From Heliocybe sulcata (lineage: Eukaryota > Basidiomycota > Agaricomycetes > Gloeophyllales > Gloeophyllaceae), in NCBI GenBank assembly GCA_004369045.1, contig ML213504.1, forward strand, positions 1,459,508 to 1,523,507: a stretch of 64,000 nt of DNA. The letters run 5' to 3'. Below the pieces are notes generated by a model. The model was not told the origin of the DNA and did no database searches. It worked only from the letters and a program-made list of their open reading frames with translations. Within the stretch, counting starts at the first letter, position 1. Every line of letters begins with the position of its first letter. A program made the translations under genes and the position numbers. Positions 24,565 to 38,700 of this stretch are shown in pieces.

Positions 24565-25198
24565 CGAAATGACTGAGGCGACCTAGAACAAGACTGCCGG
24601 CCATTGCCAAAACGTCGCTGCGTCGCTGCACCGCACCGCTACGATGTGCCGCCGACGCCGACACCGACACCGACGCAGCGCCACTGCAGCGCTGCATATC
24701 GAGAGGCCAGCGACAGCCTGTGGAACGATTCGGAGAGGTTGTCGGGCGAGGTCGGAGCTCGGGAAAAGCCAGGAAATAACGGAAAAATCCATAGAAACTT
24801 GAATATCGCTCGTAGCGCGACGCCGCGGATACGCTCACTATCGCACAGAGCGTGGGAATCTGCGCAAATGTAGTGANNNNNNNNNNCGAAATGACTGAGG
24901 CGACCTAGAACAAGTCTGCCGGCCATTGCCGAAGCGTCGCTGCGTCGCTGCACCGCACCGCTACGATGTGCCGCTTGCGCCGACGCCGACAGCGACGTAG
25001 CGCCACTGCGGCGCTGCATATCGAGAGGCCAGCGACAGCCTGTGGAATGATTCGGAGAGGTTGTTGGGCGAGGTCGGAGCTCGGGAAAAGCCAGGAAATA
25101 ACGGAAAAATCCATAGAAACTTGAATATCGCTCGTAGCGCGACGCCGCGGATACGCTCACTATCGCACAGAGCGTGGGAATCTGCGCAAATGTAGTGA
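24565..25198. repeat. Tandem 312-bp repeat, two copies around an assembly gap
   Basis: Copy 1 is 24565-24876 and copy 2 is 24887-25198. They are the same length and by eye about 95% identical, starting CGAAATGACTGAGGCG and ending AAATGTAGTGA. Ten Ns lie exactly between them, so the real copy number and spacing are unknown; a longer collapsed array is possible. An open frame on the minus strand crosses both copies, but it is a by-product of the repeat. Confidence 0.85.
24877..24886. other. Assembly gap (10 N)
   Basis: Ten consecutive Ns at the junction of the two 312-bp repeat copies. This is a placeholder, not a measured length. Confidence 0.99.
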
Positions 25199-26830: not shown

Positions 26831-29800
26831 ATGTCTCGTTTTACTTCTACGCCTTTCCATAAGCCTTCGCCTTTCGACGTCCCAAGAGCCGTGCACCCTC
26901 TCAGTCCTCCCGACACGGACTCCGACTTCATGGGTCCCGCTCAGCAATCCACCGTGTCCATGACTTTGGGCGGAGATAATGAGTCTGCTACCATTCCCAT
27001 AGCCGCCCCTGCGGAGACGCCTGCTTCACGATTCAGGAAGATATCTACGCTTGCGTATCTCAACTCAGGTCTCAGCGGGTCGCGAGGAGCAGAGCCGCGC
27101 GAAAGAGTGCAACCTAGGACGAAATGGCTGGTCGTTGTCGTCCCTCCCAATACCTTCCCTCAGGAACCGGGCCATCTCGGTCACACTCTTTCTTCCGGTC
27201 CGTCCAATCGCCTGTCTTCCGGTCTCTTGATGCCCCTGTTCCCAACCGTGAGCTTGATACTCCTATTATGCCCCCCAATGTAGCTGATCACTGCGCAGAT
27301 GTACGGCCAGCTGTCAGCGATCGCGAAGGAGTTCAACTTCCCGAGCACGACCGGACTCTGCCTGTACCTCCACGTAACCGAGAGCGGCTTCACATTCACA
27401 CCTCGAATCTCGGATGAGTCCTGGCAACTGCTGTGGGGCCATCTCTTCGAGGCCCGATCTCCCGTCACTTCTTCACCGCAACTGCCCATCAGTGGGCGCA
27501 TCGAGTTCGACATCGACCTCCGGAAAGCCCGGTGGTATGATGGTTGGGTTGCCAACTCCACCCGAGAGGCCTTCGAGCTGTCCGTGCCTGCGTCTCGAGC
27601 GCCGTCAATGTCACATTGGCGGGCTGATAGCAGGACAACCTTCGCAGGGGAGGAGCAAGGTCTCGAGGATCAAGTGGAAACGGAGTCTATTACACAACGC
27701 ACTAGGACTTTGCGTCACGTACCCAGGAAGCTGTCTCTCCTAGACCGGTTCGATACCGTGTCGGTGCGTTCCGCATCGAGAGCGCCTTCGCATGCCGAGA
27801 TATCTCCGAAGCAAGAAATTCCTGATCGCAGAGCTGCTCTGTCTCCCATTGTGCAGGAAGATGAGCCAAAATCGGGGAAGAAAGATCTCGAATCGCGCGT
27901 GCGCTCCTGGCGAGCCAGCTCCTCGGTGGCGCCTACGCCCATGGCCGTCACCGGGCAACTCAGCTTGGACCCTGTGAACATGCCGAATACCGTGTCTCTT
28001 GACTCACCGGTCGTGGAACAGGGTGAGGGGGAGTATGAGCTGAACTTGGATGATTTCACGTGGAGTATATCATCTGCTGGTCCTGAGGAGTATTATTATG
28101 AGTTGGATATGGACGGGGAGGAGGGGGAGAGTTGGCGTGCGCCCTCTGTGCATATGGACCGCAGGGTGGAGGGGTCAGTTTGCCTGACGCCCTCTGTAGC
28201 GACGTCCATGGGTCCAGAGGATTATGATCTGTTGTACTCGCCAGTGTCGAATGTGTCAAGACTGCCATCCCCGGATCTGGGTCTTCGTGTCCTGGAGAGC
28301 GTCCCGCCGACGCCTTCCACCGCCACCAGCTGGGGCCCATCTGACCGTTCCCTTTTGTACTCCCCAATGTCCAACGTCTCCCGCCTTCCGTCGCCTGATG
28401 TTGGTAGGAGAATGCTGTCTAGCGTCCCGCCCACGCCATCGACCGCTACCAGCTGGGGCCCCGCCTCGTACTACTCCAACTCCAACCCTAGTTCGCCCGC
28501 GTATGCCCAGTCTGTGGATCTCGGGCAGAGGAACTTGGCGAGCAGACCGAATACGCCGTCTACTGCGACAAGCTGGGGCCCTGGTTGGGCGAGTTACCCG
28601 CCGAGCCCTGCAAGCCCTTACTATGTGCGCACTCCTGACCTCGGGCAACGCCGCGCGGTTGAGGGTGAGGGTGAGGAGAGTGAGAGGAGGTTTGGGTGGC
28701 CGTATTATGATGCGTTCCGTGGGCAGCCGTGGAAGGGGGTGTGGCCGTATACTGACGAGAGGAGGGAACGGGAGTCAGAAATTGAAATTACTGTGGTGGA
28801 TGTGGACGTGGAGGTTGGTCCGGCGCCGAGGGGGAAGGTGAAGGGGAGTAGGAGTGATGTGAGTGGGAGCGTGAGCAGGATGGGGTTCCCCTATTATAAA
28901 GCCCAGCCAGGTGAGCCCTGGACCGGGGTGTGGCCGTACCAGCAAGAGACGGCGCAGCCGTGGAGCCAGGTGTGGCCGTATCGCGCGCAGGGAGAGGAGG
29001 AAAAGGGCGTTGAGGTGAGGTTGAAGGCGAAGTACCCCGCGTTCTCGCTCTACCCTGCTACGTACCCGTATATGGAAATTTACCCGCCTGTGGTCGAGGG
29101 GCGTGCAGATGAGAAGCTGGCGGTGTCTTACCCGCGGTTCTCGCTCTACCCGGCTGTCTACCCGGCTTTCGAGATTTACCCTGGGCATGTGTGCGGCGTC
29201 GTCGCAGCGGAGGACTCGAAGACGATCATTGTTACTCTTACCCCTTCGTACCCGACCGTGGAGGTCTATCCAGCGGTTTATCCTCACCTCGAGGTCTACC
29301 CTGTCTGCGTACGGCTGACCCGCGCTTCTCCGGTCAAGGTCACCGCTGCTAGCGGCACCGGGCGGTCTGTGCCAGCTATCTGTGAGTGCTTGGGTACATG
29401 CTGAAATGTCATTGGGCTGAGATAGGATTTGTAGCTGCTGGACGGTACCCTCATCTTGTGATCTATCCGGCTGTTCGGCAGCGCAAGCAGCAGGCGGAGA
29501 TCCAACGGTCAATTACGATTCTCTTGGAGTCGAGCTATCCAGCTCTGAGCATTTGTCAGTGTAGTTGTTGCTAACCGTTTTGCTGTTGCTTACCATGTCC
29601 CAGACCGCGCCGCGTACCCGCATATGGAGATTTACCCCGGGCATGTCCACAAGGCAGACATTGAGCGGGCTATCGTGGTCGCGCTCCGCCCTTCCTACCC
29701 CGCTCTTGACATCTGTGAGTAGCCTCACTGCAGGGCTTCGTATGTGGCTGACTTGTGGCACAGACCCGGCTGTCTATCCCTGGAGTTTGGTTAGTATCTA

Positions 29801-31634
29801 TCCTACTGGCGCCTGTCACACTTCGCCCAGGGGACGCAAGTCTATACCTGGGCAGTATCCGGACTTTGACCTTTGTACGTGGATTATATGTCTCTTCCAT
29901 CCTCAGTCACTGATGACGATGTGTTGCAGACCCCGCGAAGCACTATCCTTGCCGCGATGAAGAGTACTACAAGGCTCGCACGGTGCAGCTAAAGGCGGCG
30001 TATCCTGCCTTGGACCTCTGTGAGTTATTCGAGACAAAACGTGATGGATTTGCGAGCTCATGGGTGCTCAGACCCCGCATTGTATCCTTACTTCACCATC
30101 TACCCAGCTGCTAGTGGTATTGTCGGTGCTGTGCCTTTGTCGAGGCCCAGTGGCAAGGCAGCATCCGTCGACTCTCCACGTCAGTTATCGGTAACCATCT
30201 ATCCTTGTCTGCTAATTTGTGAGTGTTGGACTGCGGCGCTTGTTCTCCAAGTCCTGATCTTCCATAGATCCTGCCGTCTACCCTTGCTTCGATATCTATC
30301 CTGCGAGCACACCTGCTATGAAGGCAGATGTAGAGCCCATTCACCTCACTGCCCGCTATCCGATCCTCAGCCTTTGTAAGTGTTCCGTAGATGTTCCGCT
30401 TCCACTGCTGATCCGGATTGTTAGATACTGCCACCTACCCGTTTTTTGAGATCTATCCTGGAGTAGTTTGCAATGGTGCTCTCAAGGCTCACATCTCGGT
30501 TCGTCTGGACGCACAGTACCCAGCTATCCGGACATGTAAGTTGCTTTGTCGTGAAAACTGCCTGCTTATCCTTAAGATATCTTCCAGATGAGTCTGTCTA
30601 TCCTTACCTCGACGTGTATCCTGCAGCCTCGTGTTCGTCGGTATCCTCTGTGACAGCTGTCAGGCGGCGACGCACTCACGCAGAACTGCATGATATTGTG
30701 CTGAAGTCGGAAACAAGGTCAATGGTCGTCCAGAGGCAGCCTCCCCGAAAGACCCACTTCCAGCTGCACAAGGAAACACTTGCTCCGCACCTTCGAGTTG
30801 AGACTGTCGATCAGAGACGGCGCACTCGGAAGACCCATATACAGCTGCGCGATGAAGTGTTTGCCGCGCTGGCTCAAGGTGGCAGAAGTAGCCCGTCCTC
30901 CGAATCACCTTCGCGTGAAGGGAACTCGTCTCCAGAGGGGAACACTCGTCGACGAGTCTCTTTCGCGGCTGACACCGTCATAGAAGCGCCGCCGCGCGTC
31001 AGCCGCTCACGGTCTGGGACTGTTAGCAGGAATGCTATTCCTCCTGTCCCCCCTATCCCACCCCAGTTTGCCACGAGGCCTCCAGCGTCTGCGATGCGCC
31101 GTATGCCAAAAGCTGGTGATCCGTCCTCTAATCCTGCGCAAATCACCAGACCGATGTCCACGGTGATTGACAGCAACGTGAACAGAATGCGCGGGTCATC
31201 GGTGTCGCCGGTTACAGAGAGTCCCACTCCAAGAGCCTCTGTAATGACGGCTAGGGTAGAGCGAGCAAAGTCGATGATTTTGCCTGGGATATTGCCTGAA
31301 AATCCAGTATCAGACTTGGACAGATCGAATTCTTTGAATGGTACGGTCAGGAGACCAGGCCGGACACGGGAGAGTCTGGTATCTGAGCGCATGAAGGCCT
31401 TCAATACCTCGCCAGCCACATCTCCTTGTACGTGGTAGCGTGATCTATGGTTGCCATCTCACTTACCCACCTTCTTGTGTTGCAGCCGAGCGTAGTGATT
31501 CTGACGCCCCTCCGATGAAGATCACCCTCAACGCTCTGTCTCAATTCCCCATGCCCCCGGCACCCAAACTCCCGCCTCTTCCCAACGGAAGGCCGGTGTC
31601 AAAACTGGATAGATCGAAGTATCCTTTCGCATGA
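26831..31634 (+). CDS. Tyr-Pro-repeat protein with one repeat per exon (function unknown)
   Basis: I do not recognise a family. The spliced product is 1428 residues with no signal peptide or membrane segment. A Ser/Pro-rich head leads into a small domain (WLVVVVPPNTFP, FNFPSTTGLCLYLHV). Then come about four copies of a PPTPSTATSWGP module spaced by RLPSPDLG-type linkers (28180-28650), and WPYY/GVWPY motifs (28690-28990). From 29020 there is a long series of units of the form YPALDI-YPAVYPHLEIYP. The tail is basic and Ser/Pro-rich. Introns are 27248-27298, 29382-29434, 29555-29603, 29715-29763, 29875-29929, 30020-30071, 30219-30267, 30376-30424, 30536-30587 and 31428-31485. The seven exons between 29435 and 30535 (120, 111, 111, 90, 147, 108 and 111 nt) are all multiples of three, and their introns interrupt a codon after its first base, nearly always a Tyr codon. 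The exons sum to 1429 codons. Confidence 0.85.
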
Positions 31635-32336
31635 TCCAGCTGATCGTCCTTGATATTCCTTATTCGCTTTCTTCACGTTCGTCTAGATTTGCTGCACTTG
31701 CTCTATTTATTCCCCAGGTTGATGGCGATATTGGGAGGGGGAAGTCTCTCGTTCTTAGTGTAGGAGCACCATCGGTGGAATGCTGTAATATCGTGTGGAT
31801 CACTATATAATAGATTTGGACGACAGGCCCAGGCTGCTTATAAGTAATGTAGTATCCCCAGTGCTGCGCGATTGTCTTTGCAGCTAGGTCTACAGATACT
31901 GACCGACAGTCTAGCATAGCCAGTAGTGAAACATTGCAATATTGTGTTGATCGCCATACAGATGCTCTCGCTCTCAGCAGGTGCGGTCGGAGGCCACCAA
32001 ATGGAGCACTTACGGACGCACTGAGGCTCGCGAAAAGTAATCAAGCCGGCGATCAGCAGCGTGCCACGCTTGGTTCGCGGTTGTGGTCGCCGAGTTGGAG
32101 GCTGTTGGCGGTGACCAGCTCTAGCCGAGCTGCCACCAACATCAACGTGGTCCTCACACTATCCCATCGTCTTGTCTCTGCCTGCATGGCTAATGCATTC
32201 TAGGTATCTAGCACTCCTTTGAATTAGTCTAAGGTGAGACCGGCAGTCCGACCCTGGTGATGGTACTTAATTGTATCAATTCTGAAGGCAAACGCCCTTT
32301 TAGCCTTCGACTATCGAGCGGGAGTCGTTTTGGATC
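31635..32336. other. Intergenic spacer
   Basis: About 700 bp between two genes on the same strand. I see only short open frames without recognisable content. Confidence 0.5.
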
Positions 32337-35300
32337 ATGGCGACTAACGGTGCGCTCAACCCCGAGTCTATGGCTTTCTTCCCTGGAGGAAATCGCTCTG
32401 GCGAAGAGGAACACGGTTACCGACTGCGAGAGCCTGATCGCGCCTCCGTGTCCTCGTTATCTATATCGCCATCCGACTATCGTTCTGTCAGATCCTCACC
32501 CAGCCCACCCGAAGACGGTATTACCCCGCTTCAGCGCTCTCCATCCGGCGACGAAGCGCGCCTATCGCCGGGCATACGGCATATACAGGCTGATAGGACG
32601 TATCCGAACATAGAGACGCGGGTGGTTCGGCAAGCGAGCATGGTGGGCAGTTTCGACACTCTACCTGATACCGAGGACATGGGTGCTCCACCGGAGAAAG
32701 GGGTCATGATTGCAACACCTGGTAACCACTTGCAGCGCGACAATACGTATTTCTCTGCCATCTTCCAGCAGAATCGCGAACGCGCGACGCCGCCAGTGCT
32801 CAGTAGCAGCTTCAGGTCGTCCTCATTCCAGAATGGAACCTTCGTCTCGTCTTCTCCCGTGTCATCTTTGGGTTCTGGCAGCCAGTTCGCTTCCGGAGGC
32901 GCTTCGGGAGACAATTTGTCCAGCTTCGAGGCTCAGTTGAGGGCTTCGCCCCTGATCAACGATGTGCTGGAGAGGCTTATGCGCTGCGAGCTGTCCAATC
33001 GAGAAATTCAGCGTGAACTGGGTGACGTCAATCGCAAGCTTAGCATTCTTTTGGACCGGTCTCTTGAGACGAACGTACAGCCGGAGTTCAAGAATCCCTT
33101 TGCACCTTCGAGTTTCCCTGGCTCGAACAACTTGAGTGGACCTCGCGGTTCCATCGCCGGAATTCCTCCGCACCAAACGCCTCCCGTGGATGATATCACG
33201 CAGATCAACCGAAGGCTGAATACTCTGACCTCATCAATCGGGCAGATCCTGGCTATCCAGACGCAGCAGGTGCAGAACATCAGCTCTGCAGGACCCAGCA
33301 GCTCACAATTCAGCAACAGTCCGCAGTTGGACGTCGGTAATCATGTCATGACTCCACCGATTAGCACCCCTACGTCTATGCTAAGTCATGGCCTACCTAG
33401 TCGCGGAGATGGGCGAACGAGTACTCGTACACCTAACCCCCCGATGCGTACATGGTCCGCTGGTACCCTGGATATGCCCATGCGGTCTACACCTGACCTG
33501 TCTGCATCGCTGAGTCGGCAAGAGCCAGGTCTGCGTGATAAGAGGCGTTCGGTTATAGGGTTGTCTCGAAGAGACTCAGGCGGGGTTGGTTATTTCCTTC
33601 ACAGCGCATCGGCACCCTAATACTGAACTTCTTGGTCAGACTGAAAGCTTCTCGAATTCGAATCGTGATGGAGGCCCGGTGATATCGAAATGGGAACAGT
33701 TGCCATTGGCCGCGGAATTGCTGCGATCCTTGAGCAAATTCGGGTAAGGCTTTTGCGACGAAAATTGATGCTCATGATACTCATATTGTCACAGCGTTGG
33801 CCCTCCGAATAAGATACAGCAGCGGGCGCTGCCCTTCCTGTTGCGTGGGGCGGACATTATTGCGCAGGCTCCTCCGACGCAGGAACGTATCGCGGCGTAT
33901 GTTATACCCGCGATACAAGTGGCGTTAGCGCACTCAGCAAATCGCCCTCCTAACCGAGGCCCCATCGTTCTCATGATCTCGACTACCGTGGACCAGGCTA
34001 CCCAAGCTCAACGTATGATACGTGATTTGGGTGGTCCAATTGGAGTACGTTCTGCCCTTGGCGTTGGCACGACCAGCATGAACGGCGACCTCAGCCAGGA
34101 GTTACGTCTCCTCCAGCAAAATATACCGCACGTCATCTGCGGCACACCTCAGAAGCTGCACGCTCTCTTCACTGCGCCCGGCGGTCTCATCGGATCGGAA
34201 GTGCGATTCCTGGTCATAGACGAAGTGGATCAACTCATCGCGCGCAACTTACACGAATTTGTCTTCAACATTGTCAAGATGTTACCTCCTCCTCGCTCTC
34301 GATCTCTACCATCTGGCTCTCCTAATTCGGCGCCGGGACCAGGTGGCTCGTCGTTTTCACCGCTGGACACTAATCTACTTTCTCCCTTCCCGAACCAGAA
34401 TCAATCTCGGCGACTGTCCGGAATAATCACTCCTAGCGCTGGCGACATTGCGGACGCGCCAATCGAACGCCAAACAGCACTCTTTTCTAACACGGTCCCA
34501 CAAGATGTATTGAACCTAGCTTCAGCTATTCAGCTGCGTGAACCAGTCCGCGTGCTCGTGCGACGGGACGGCAATGTCACGCACGCCGACACGAATCAAG
34601 GCGCTAGGGGGCTTCGCCAATTCTACCTGTACCTCGCGTTCACTGCTGGAGGTCGCGCGGAGCCCATGCCTCCTTCTGGAGGTCTCGGCATTATTGGTTC
34701 CGGTCGTAGCGCCTCTAGCGCCGAAACGGCTCAAGCGCGGGAGTGGAAGCTGGATGCTCTCGCTGACCTCTTTGATGATATAGATGTACCCCAAGCGATT
34801 GTGCATGTCGGGGGCATGAATGCGCTTGATTCCGTTGTGTATAAATTAGCCAGCCGCGGATTGGAGGCGGTTCCTCTGGTGAGTCCTCGTTCAATCCTCT
34901 TCACGTCCGGATCTCAAACTCGGTAACATAGCACGGGGACATGAACGCCGGCACTAAGCTCGCCGCTCTTAACAAATTCAGAACTTCGACGAGCAGTATT
35001 ATGAGACAGCCGACCACTAAAGTCCTTGTCGTCTACGACGTGCAAGTCAAAGCACCGGAGGTTTCTCACATCCCTCTTGTTATTAATTATGGTGCGTGCC
35101 GTTCCTTCGTCCTGGACTGCATCTAAGGACTTTGTTACAGATCTTCCCAAGGCCGTTGAAGAATATATGTCTCGGTAAGGCCTCCATCGTCAGTGATAAT
35201 GCATTCCTCCGTGGCTCATTTGTACACTGTAGTATCAACCCAGCTATCGCATCTAATCACGGACGTGCCGGGGTTGTCATCAACTTTGTGACCGCTACTG

Positions 35301-35495
35301 GTGGTGACGTCGAAATGCTCCGGTCTATTGAATGCCATTATAAGTGAGTCCCGTCCAGTCTCAACGTCTGCATATCGCCTAACAGAACGCACTCTAGGAT
35401 CAAATGTGTGAGTATCTCGCTCTCTGGCTTTTTGTATCGGCGTTAATGCTTCCGTGTAGCCTGAGGTTCCTATGAGCCTCCGCGATATCGTCTAA
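32337..35495 (+). CDS. eIF4A-like DEAD-box pseudohelicase with long disordered N-terminus
   Basis: The 928-residue product has about 450 Ser/Pro-rich residues with one coiled coil (LRASPLINDVLERLMRCELS onward), then a full two-lobe eIF4A-like core. The Q-motif region is GPPNKIQQRALPFLLRGADI. The ATPase motifs are altered: Walker A reads AQAPPTQER (eIF4A: AQSQSGTGKT), motif II VIDEVDQL, motif III FSNT (eIF4A: SAT). The HRIGR motif VI region reads SRINPAIASNHGR. Fold positions persist (PVRVLVRRD, LHGDMN, LVINYDLPKAVEEYMSR, AGVVINF, PMSLRDIV at the end). Introns are 33585-33639, 33744-33794, 34879-34931, 35092-35140, 35175-35232, 35344-35397 and 35408-35459, giving a 10-nt exon at 35398-35407; the exons sum to 929 codons. 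It should lack ATPase activity and may act as a scaffold or RNA-binding regulator; this is inference. Confidence 0.85.
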
Positions 35496-35738: not shown

Positions 35739-38700
35739 CTATCGGACTACAAGTATTTTTAGGGTGCCATCTTCACTGCAACACGCAAGTTGACTTTGCA
35801 TGCCTTCCATGACCGGTCGCCACGCCAGACGGTAAATATGGTCGATATGAGTGAGTCTAACATGAGATTATTAGGGCAAGCCATAGCATGACAGTAAGTA
35901 TAGCGATACCTTCGATCAATCGTGCACTCTAGCTGCCAGTCAGAGACGGATGTTGTCGCGTTCTTGTATATTGTGATCTCCCCGGTTTCGGTTCCAACGG
36001 CCAACCGTCGCCTGTCGAGGAACTCAGTACGTCCTTGGAGGAAGAAAAACAGTTCTCACTTTCGGTTTTCTTCAAGAGTAAATGCGACAGCGGTAGCAGC
36101 TTCTTTAGTCTTCAGAGTGGCCACTGATGACCATTTACGTCCTTCATCTTCTGGGTGCCAAATTCTGACCTGAAGGCGTATGTCAACCGCGTAAGCACAC
36201 CACAGCTATGATAGTCCGCCAGGACGCACCGTCTTGTCTCGGGAAGCGGTGGCGAAGACATCACCCTCGTGCGCCCATGCACAATCCCATATAATGCGAC
36301 CGTGACTCTTATCGGCAGCAACGGGCGCAAAACCTGTGCACGTGAGATACGTTATCCCATCCACAATCAATACTGTCCTCCTCACCAGAGTCAGGCTGCG
36401 CTTCGAACAAGCGCCATGAGCGGTCTCGCGAAACGGTGAGAATGTATCGGTCATCTGGACTGAACGCTATCCGAGTGACGGTCAGTGAATGGCCTCCCAA
36501 AGGCTGTCCAACCGGCTGCCATTGCTGCGTGTCGAACACTCGGACGACGGCGTGCTCGGCGGTCGTTGATTTGCAGGCTGTCGCGATCAGCTTCTTGTTG
36601 GTCGATGCTGCGAGAGATATCGACTGTACGAGCGTTCAGCATTACACAGTGTTTCCGAGTATTTGCTGGGGCAGGTACCTCGTAACCGTGGCCAAAGACT
36701 TTCTCGATCTCAGGCCACAGGGTCATTGATGAGAGTTCGGCCTCGAACGGCCTCCTGTGCACCGCATTCCAGTCGTAGGCTGTGCTGACGATGCTTGCAT
36801 CTTTTACAGCCTTGTTGGAAAGACCCAATGGAGGCACACTAGCTGCGGCTGGCCTTTCCGTCTACACCATCGTCAGATCCACGTCGGAAGCGAGCACGCG
36901 TGCGACACATACCTCATCCTCTGATGGCAGGTTTGCCACCTTCAAGCCAACAAGAGCATCTACGAACGTCTGAGGTGCCTCGAAGACGCGCACGACCTTC
37001 TCGTCTGCGATGCTCACGAAACGGAACGGATCCAGGGGGACGACGTCTATCAGATCGTAGCCGTGGACTTGCGGTCTCGCGAGCTCGTGCCAGACTGGAG
37101 TTGTATCTCCATCTTCAAGAGGCACGGGTCCATGGATACGCGTCGTCTGGTCAAGACTACATGCGTCGTCACTATCTCGCGCGCAGGTGAATAGGACGGT
37201 GTCCCCACCTAGTAGAGATGAGGTATTCACCACTAGGGCTCCACGCAATCCCTCTGACAGGTCCATTGTGGCCAGTCACAGCACCTACCTCTGCCCATAC
37301 CTCTTCATCGTTCGAGGACTCGGCAGCACACCTCCATCTTCTCCACCCGCCAGACCAGCCCCACGCCAACGCCTCCGCTCCACCTCGAGACCATAAGCCG
37401 CCAACAAAGCCTCCGAGCCTTTGTCCGCCCACATCGCCGAATCGCTGGCGGTTGATCCAGATGGCGGTAGAGTCACCTTGGGCGGTAGAGATGATCGTAG
37501 ATGGGGACCAGAGGATGAGGGAGGAGTCTGTGGAGGTGGAGAGGAGAGTGAGGTTGTCCTCGTTCGAGTTTGAGTTGATGGTGGGTCGCCAGGCAAGGGA
37601 GGTGATCCCTGCTTCGTGGCCGACTAGGAGGGCATCAAAGGTTATGGAGAATTGTTGGGTGCTGGTAGTAAATATAAGGACCGGTTAGATCCTTCTCAGA
37701 AGTGCACTTCCTACCTGCCCTCGCTCGATTTGACTGTCAGGATATGACGCTTCATGGATATCTGCCGTCCGCCCTCTTCGGCATCTCCAAGGGTGCCAAG
37801 CGAGCTCTCGAATGCGTCGAGCAGGTCGTCGCTCAAAGACGCATCTGCTGAATCTGTTGCTCTGGAGGTGTTCCGGCTATACATCTCGAACTTCCACAAT
37901 CTTATCGTGCTGTCTTGCGAACCAGATGCCAGTATCAATGATTGTCCTTCGGATTCGTACGAGTGGAAGTCCAAGCCCCGGACCCAGTCTTCATGGCCAG
38001 ACAGGATTGCAGACCTTACAAACTGGATTAATTAGATACGGAGTGTGGTCAACATGCATAAGGAGCGCTCACAGAGTCATCTGAACGCGTCCAGACTTGG
38101 ACATTTTTGTCTGTCCCGCCAATCGCGAGAACGGCGGCTACAACATACGGAGGATACAATTATGTAACGTCTGGAAATATGTATTAACGCGTACCTTGGG
38201 AATTGAGGAGAGTCGTTAGTCGGACAGAGAGGGGATATTTCCCGCGGAGATCAATCGTCTGGGCTTCCTTGAATTCTCCAGTGGAAGAATCGACTGAAGA
38301 TTTCAGATATTTAGGATTCGAGTAGAATTACCGCCTATCTTAGATATCTTACCGAGTGTCCATATTTTTACAGAACCGTCAGAGGATCCTGTCGCAAGCG
38401 TCCGATCGTGGTGGTGCAAACATGACAGGCCCTTGTCGTGGGCCCGAAAGCTATAGGCTGCTTTCCACTGAAACGAGCAGTGTCATTTTCGAGCTATAGT
38501 AACATTACATGTTCCAACCTTGCCTCATTGTCTTTGAGCTGCCAGCATCTCATGAAACCTCTGTCATCTCCGCTTAATAGCAGATCGTCCCGAGCGAAGT
38601 ACGTGCAGGTTACAAGTCCTTCGTGGCCAGGCAGGGTCTGGTACACTCCGCGACCAGTGGCATCCTGAGACAAACCTATTCAGGTACTTCTTCTTCATAG

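Follow-up and report, generated by a model that had tools for sequence, protein, structure and literature searches.

We found that the window, by which we mean the whole stretch of 64,000 nucleotides analysed here, carries on its plus strand (32337-35495) a gene for an eIF4A-like protein that is probably a dead duplicate of eIF4A, kept under selection for its fold and acting as a catalytically dead binding platform. In the sequence of events that we propose, an eIF4A gene would have been duplicated at the DNA level, as supported by common introns and the best match, and, to judge from its motifs, the duplicate would have lost the ability to bind and hydrolyse nucleotides and to grip RNA. Its two-RecA-domain fold appears to have stayed under selection, a view backed by statistical comparison with neutral decay. 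In front of the core lies a long low-complexity arm of disordered type, with about 430 residues and two possible short coiled coils. The folded core presumably uses a surface retained from eIF4A to hold a partner, and the arm could tether or cluster further ones. The best hint concerns the surface for MIF4G-type HEAT domains (eIF4G, CWC22), and a partner of this type is a guess.

The gene was modelled by splice signals and homology and comprises eight exons, starting with the ATG at 32337. All seven introns are of the GT-AG type with lengths of 49-58 nt, and the joined frame is open over 928 codons plus a stop. Exon 1 (32337-33584) encodes residues 1-416, a Ser/Pro/Arg/Gly-rich extension by composition, and exon 2 (33640-33743) encodes the end of this extension and, according to the alignment, the helix with which the eIF4A-like core begins (SKWEQLPLAAELLRSLSKFG). 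The intron between them was picked by frame and contains a branch-point-like box, CTAAT, 23 nt from its end. Intron 2 (33744-33794, phase 2) lies inside the Gly codon preceding the Q motif and is followed by exon 3 (33795-34878), which covers the remainder of RecA1, the linker and the beginning of RecA2. Intron 3 (34879-34931, phase 0) is located before HGDM, from where exon 4 (34932-35091) continues RecA2 to NY(D). The gene model is completed by exon 5 (35141-35174), an intron that interrupts the motif VI position (35175-35232), exon 6 (35233-35343; INPAIASNHGRAGVVINFVTATGGDVEMLRSIECHY), exon 7 with only 10 nt (35398-35407) and exon 8 (35460-35495), which encodes the C-terminal PEVPMSLRDIV and the stop. 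A previous sequence-only reading of this DNA had described an eIF4A-like core at 33795-35495 with an intact frame over 928 codons. The spliced open frame with its stop and seven GT-AG introns confirms the latter, and the interval corresponds exactly to exons 3-8, but the homologous core starts further upstream, with exon 2 giving the first helix.

The sequence on both sides of the gene shows several features of its own. A 300-nt direct repeat is present in two copies at 24565-25186, which are 96% identical and 322 nt apart; a short run of N lies between the copies, and the repeat is possibly an assembly-sensitive tandem duplication. The upstream gene (~26833-31640, plus strand) apparently encodes many YPxx(I/L)YPxVYP units, as judged by eye; several similar units are each followed by a short intron, which gives the impression of exon multiplication. 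Downstream, a WD40-repeat gene (~36200-38030, minus strand) is convergent with the eIF4A-like gene; three of its five reading-frame pieces match Pfam WD40 over the cut-off, a fourth matches below it and the fifth not at all. From its look by eye, this gene may be Elp2-like.

By sequence, the protein contains the two RecA-like domains of the DEAD-box family. Pfam DEAD matches residues 456-620 (E 3.6e-15, 56.5 bits against a cut-off of 26) and Pfam Helicase_C residues 769-878 (E 2.7e-7, 31.3 bits against 23.5), and since both scores exceed the curated cut-offs, a chance resemblance to the family is excluded. Residues ~432-928 match eIF4A, and the top PDB match is eIF4A-I (E 8.9e-40), followed by eIF4AIII, among the best 60 of 145 matches at E≤0.001. 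The Pfam matches and the alignment with eIF4A-I bear out the earlier view of an eIF4A-like core from the Q motif to the C-terminal SLRDIV. Identity amounts to 33.5% with the eIF4A of the same genome (331 aligned positions), 31.0% with its Fal1 and 27.3% with its Dhh1. A tree groups the protein with eIF4A, Fal1 and viral eIF4A, but the support is weak (72/56), and its branch is the longest (2.33).

Two introns are shared with the genome's own eIF4A: intron 2 interrupts the same codon, the Gly before the Q motif, in the same phase 2, and intron 3 before HGDM agrees in both position and phase 0. A rough hand estimate, comparing 6 with 5 introns over about 1,170 places, gives ~0.03 common places expected by chance. 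Because of these shared introns and the best match to eIF4A, an old DNA-level duplication of eIF4A is supported as the origin of the gene, even though three of the five own eIF4A introns in or edging the homologous region are not common to both genes, one located before the first helix and two near the 3′ end. Descent from Fal1/eIF4AIII is less likely than from eIF4A: the genome's Fal1 lacks the HGDM intron, and its intron at the first shared place is, in our reading, in phase 1. When the 31.6 Mb genome was searched with the core and exon 1, no second close copy of either appeared, and exon 1 matched itself alone; likewise, no second copy or allele turned up that could serve for polymorphism. 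Relatives of exon 3 were not confirmed in viral contigs.

To describe the helicase motifs, we used the genome's own eIF4A as reference, with the usual motif positions of eIF4A. At the motif I (Walker A) position (33868-33891, plus strand, like all features of the gene), the protein has APPTQERI instead of AQSGTGKT: the P-loop glycines are gone, Lys is changed to Arg and Thr to Ile. Motif Ia is changed from PTRELA to TTVDQA, the GG position reads GT, and motif Ib is changed from TPGR to TPQK. In motif IV, VIFCNTRR is replaced by IVHVGGMN, and in motif IVa, Q..R by A..K. The motif V position (35028-35063) carries VVYDVQVKAPEV where eIF4A has ITTDLLARGIDV; here TTDLLARGIDV corresponds to VYDVQVKAPEV, with KAPE in place of RGID. 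None of the RNA-gripping motifs Ia, GG, Ib, IVa and V is intact. At the intron-interrupted motif VI position (35170-35266), SRINPAIASNHGR is found where eIF4A has HRIGRGGRFGR; in the aligned columns HRIGRGGR has become SRINPASN with two inserted residues, and both arginine-finger positions are altered. Other parts are better kept. Motif II (34219-34230) is DEVD instead of DEAD, which is still DExD with D, E and the last D preserved; motif III (34486-34494) is SNT instead of SAT, with S and T kept; and the Q motif is changed from FPIQ to VPIQ, with Val for Phe and its Gln kept. The placement of motifs I, II and VI is the same in the alignment made by HMMER.

The individual letters given in the sequence-only reading (APPTQER, DEVD, SNT, a replaced HRIGRxGR segment, AGVVINF and SLRDIV) all recur in our alignment, but its statement that every ATPase motif is lost went too far: motifs I, Ia, IV, IVa, V and VI are destroyed, whereas DEVD is still DExD, and S and T of motif III as well as the Q-motif Gln are kept. 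Of the machinery for ATP and RNA, we infer that nothing is left but the acidic residues of DExD and the Gln of the Q motif. Among 28 other DEAD-type loci of the genome, motif I follows the strict pattern in 21 and is visible in two more; since it is unresolved across introns in the remaining five, we do not claim that this is the genome's only dead DEAD-type locus. Our motif names are the same as those in the available part of PMC9539457 apart from the Ib/GG split.

The loss of the motifs stands out against the state of the rest of the core. Retention was counted at the positions where human eIF4A-I agrees with both own eIF4A and own Fal1, comprising 56 motif and 177 non-motif positions. The eIF4A-like protein retains 18/56 motif (0.32) and 73/177 non-motif positions (0.41). 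For comparison, 12 DEAD-box loci of the same genome yielded 11 projections (none for L031), of which nine are neither eIF4A nor Fal1. A first count used five of these nine paralogues; a repeat included all nine, with projections that for some cover just 229-352 of the 366 positions. Their motif retention is 0.71-0.85 (lowest 40/56, highest 46/54) and their non-motif retention 0.28-0.47 (lowest 37/130, highest 81/172). So, outside the motifs, the protein is as near to eIF4A as active-looking paralogues are, and what it has lost is the extra conservation of the motifs. The difference between motif and non-motif loss inside the protein alone is not significant (p 0.27); the signal of selective loss rests on the contrast with the paralogues.

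The core is preceded by an N-terminal extension (residues 1-431), in which Ser (16%), Pro, Arg and Gly are abundant, Lys and Trp are scarce, and heptad-like patterns occur in two short stretches (residues ~209-236 and ~292-319). Exon 1 showed no known domain: no Pfam domain was found at E≤10, and the sole matches among PDB sequences were to one augmin subunit with a non-significant E of 0.15-0.16. According to the alignment, the largest inserts within the core are a low-complexity insert of ~60 residues between motifs II and III (34285-34465, approximate ends), ~30 residues after the linker and 8 residues before motif V.

The best-kept 15-column windows relative to own eIF4A are NFVTATDVEMLRSIE (11/15), LVINYDLPKAVEEYM (10/15) and FYQAREWKLDALADL (10/15), and the worst-kept windows include motifs I, IV and V. 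Among the best-kept segments is EWKLDALADLFDDID (34741-34785), which corresponds to the eIF4A segment with the eIF4G contacts D265 and E268; the FYQAREWKLDALADL window contains D265 and leads to E268. Of the eIF4G contacts of eIF4A named in the accessible text of PMC7470955 (R45, D265, E268, D296 and T298), R45 and D265 are kept, E268 is replaced by Asp (also present in own Fal1), D296 by Gly and T298 by Glu; the Arg equivalent to R45, numbered by hand count, lies in exon 2. Moreover, a D270K/D273K mutant of eIF4A3 fails to bind CWC22, as stated in the available part of PMC4482076, and by eye these two residues would correspond to the kept D..D of DLFD. We take the partly kept eIF4G/CWC22-binding surface as a lead, a weak hint of a role in translation or in mRNA regulation.

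MIF4G genes that might provide a partner are present in the genome. One region (L124/L125, G000:C10:612500-631500) contains three MIF4G-encoding stretches within 13 kb, apparently through recent copying of eIF4G. Two of them are in opposite orientation and at least one of those has a different upstream sequence, with their likeness judged by eye. These copies were rejected as the original partner, as they are near-identical by eye and hence too young for a protein that has diverged so far. If the protein is indeed a dead binding platform, our tentative guess would be that it acts as a competitor, place-holder or adaptor of a MIF4G-type scaffold. A more specific version is unlikely as a whole: the protein would be a lineage-specific mimic of eIF4A that sits on an eIF4G/MIF4G scaffold without ATP cycling, is tethered by its arm and in this way represses the initiation of translation or the assembly of mRNPs, or redirects them, in effect a built-in competitor of eIF4A.

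A serious possibility is that the same dead scaffold binds a partner unrelated to those of eIF4A, for example as a structural RNP module, with the N-terminal arm setting the specificity. In its favour, just three of the five eIF4G contacts named in that part of PMC7470955 are kept or conservative, and Utp25, as described in the available part of PMC9539457, keeps a DEAD-box fold without the motifs behind a disordered N-terminus. Nothing speaks directly against it, and it differs from our preferred explanation in the partner alone, with which it is not mutually exclusive.

It is improbable that the gene is instead a decaying duplicate, whose function was recently lost or is drifting and whose open frame is a remnant. 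We simulated such decay by randomly mutating own eIF4A, with stops forbidden, to equal identity (33.5%) in 500 runs. At 112 core positions that are hydrophobic in four family members, the eIF4A-like protein is hydrophobic in 100, compared to 73.7 ± 4.9 in the simulations (maximum 87), and its BLOSUM62 sum is 556 compared to 400.4 ± 25.9 (maximum 483), so that both values lie outside all 500 runs. As a control for alignment bias, 40 simulated proteins were realigned with MAFFT; their hydrophobicity was 0.656 ± 0.049 (maximum 0.732) against 0.893 in the eIF4A-like protein, and 40 further simulations at 29% identity gave 0.645 ± 0.042. Furthermore, the simulations had to reject on average 16.9 changes to a stop (minimum 6) over 331 codons, whereas the gene has none. 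Codon bias toward the genome's other DEAD-box genes also persists, with z of 4.3 for the extension and 4.8 for the core against a null given by the base composition of nearby non-coding DNA. This bias is weaker here than in the training DEAD-box genes (mean log RSCU 0.030 in the extension and 0.020 in the core, compared to 0.079).

Decay would be in line with the very long branch and with a RecA1 domain whose fold positions are less kept than in compared enzymes; moreover, the data come from one genome. Compared with 41 prokaryotic and viral proteins, RecA1 retains 9/23 motif positions (their minimum is 0.87) and 42/89 non-motif positions (0.47, compared to a minimum of 0.51 and a median of 0.83), although the consensus was defined by those 41 proteins, which favours them. 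They were obtained from 82 loci, 39 of them picked by hand for variety among 80 loci (out of 175 found) and both of two more, and motif III was not counted here. This lower non-motif retention counts against full constraint. Together, the tests point to a long constraint on the core, and solely a recent end of selection would be compatible with them and escape detection. The two-RecA-domain fold thus seems to have been retained, as far as sequence statistics against neutral decay can tell. The earlier proposal of a selected pseudohelicase is supported by the open frame, non-motif retention at the level of paralogues, core hydrophobicity above decay and mild codon bias. Our preferred explanation, a dead eIF4A duplicate held under fold selection as a binding platform, is weakened by the longest branch with its weak placement, the weaker codon bias and the lower RecA1 non-motif retention, as well as by the three unshared eIF4A introns and the loss of two of the five eIF4G contacts listed in PMC7470955 as far as available.

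It is very improbable that the protein is a divergent but active ATPase, in which DEVD and the Q-motif Gln are functional and an unusual loop takes the place of Walker A: the acidic residues of motif II, S and T of motif III and this Gln are kept, but the P-loop glycines, Lys and Thr are gone, RGID is KAPE, both arginine-finger positions are changed, and the eIF4A mutants DQAD, R362K and R365K are reported to be devoid of helicase activity in the available part of PMC7470955.

A pseudohelicase that can be traced to eIF4A by its introns and that exists beside intact eIF4A and Fal1 would reveal how much of eIF4A's surface is worth keeping without catalysis, and where. If it is true that an eIF4A partner is bound, the protein would be a natural tool that separates the scaffolding of eIF4A from its unwinding. 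Our literature search, with most subscription journals beyond its reach, found no fungal pseudohelicase derived from eIF4A, and the accessible text of PMC9539457 (2022) counts two pseudohelicases, Utp25 and one bacterial PriA. Like eIF4A and eIF4AIII, the protein has a two-RecA core that can be aligned all the way from its first helix to the C-terminus, and it has two introns in common with own eIF4A; unlike them, it has lost motifs I, Ia, IV, IVa, V and VI and carries inserts and an N-terminal extension of 431 residues. PriA of Deinococcus radiodurans, a DNA pseudohelicase, is likewise described as a helicase with negligible ATPase in the available parts of PMC4504706 and PMC9539457, but it is a different helicase that works at DNA replication forks. 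Utp25/Def, the pseudohelicase of the SSU processome, resembles our protein in having a DEAD-box fold without working motifs and a disordered N-terminus, again according to the available part of PMC9539457. An orthologue of Utp25 is ruled out, since Pfam at E≤1 gives DEAD and Helicase_C alone, with no match to the Utp25 family, and a separate gene on contig C5 of the same genome matches Utp25_C. The eIF4A-like protein appears closest to eIF4A in sequence, and, within what these sources describe, the nearest known thing to it in kind is Utp25.
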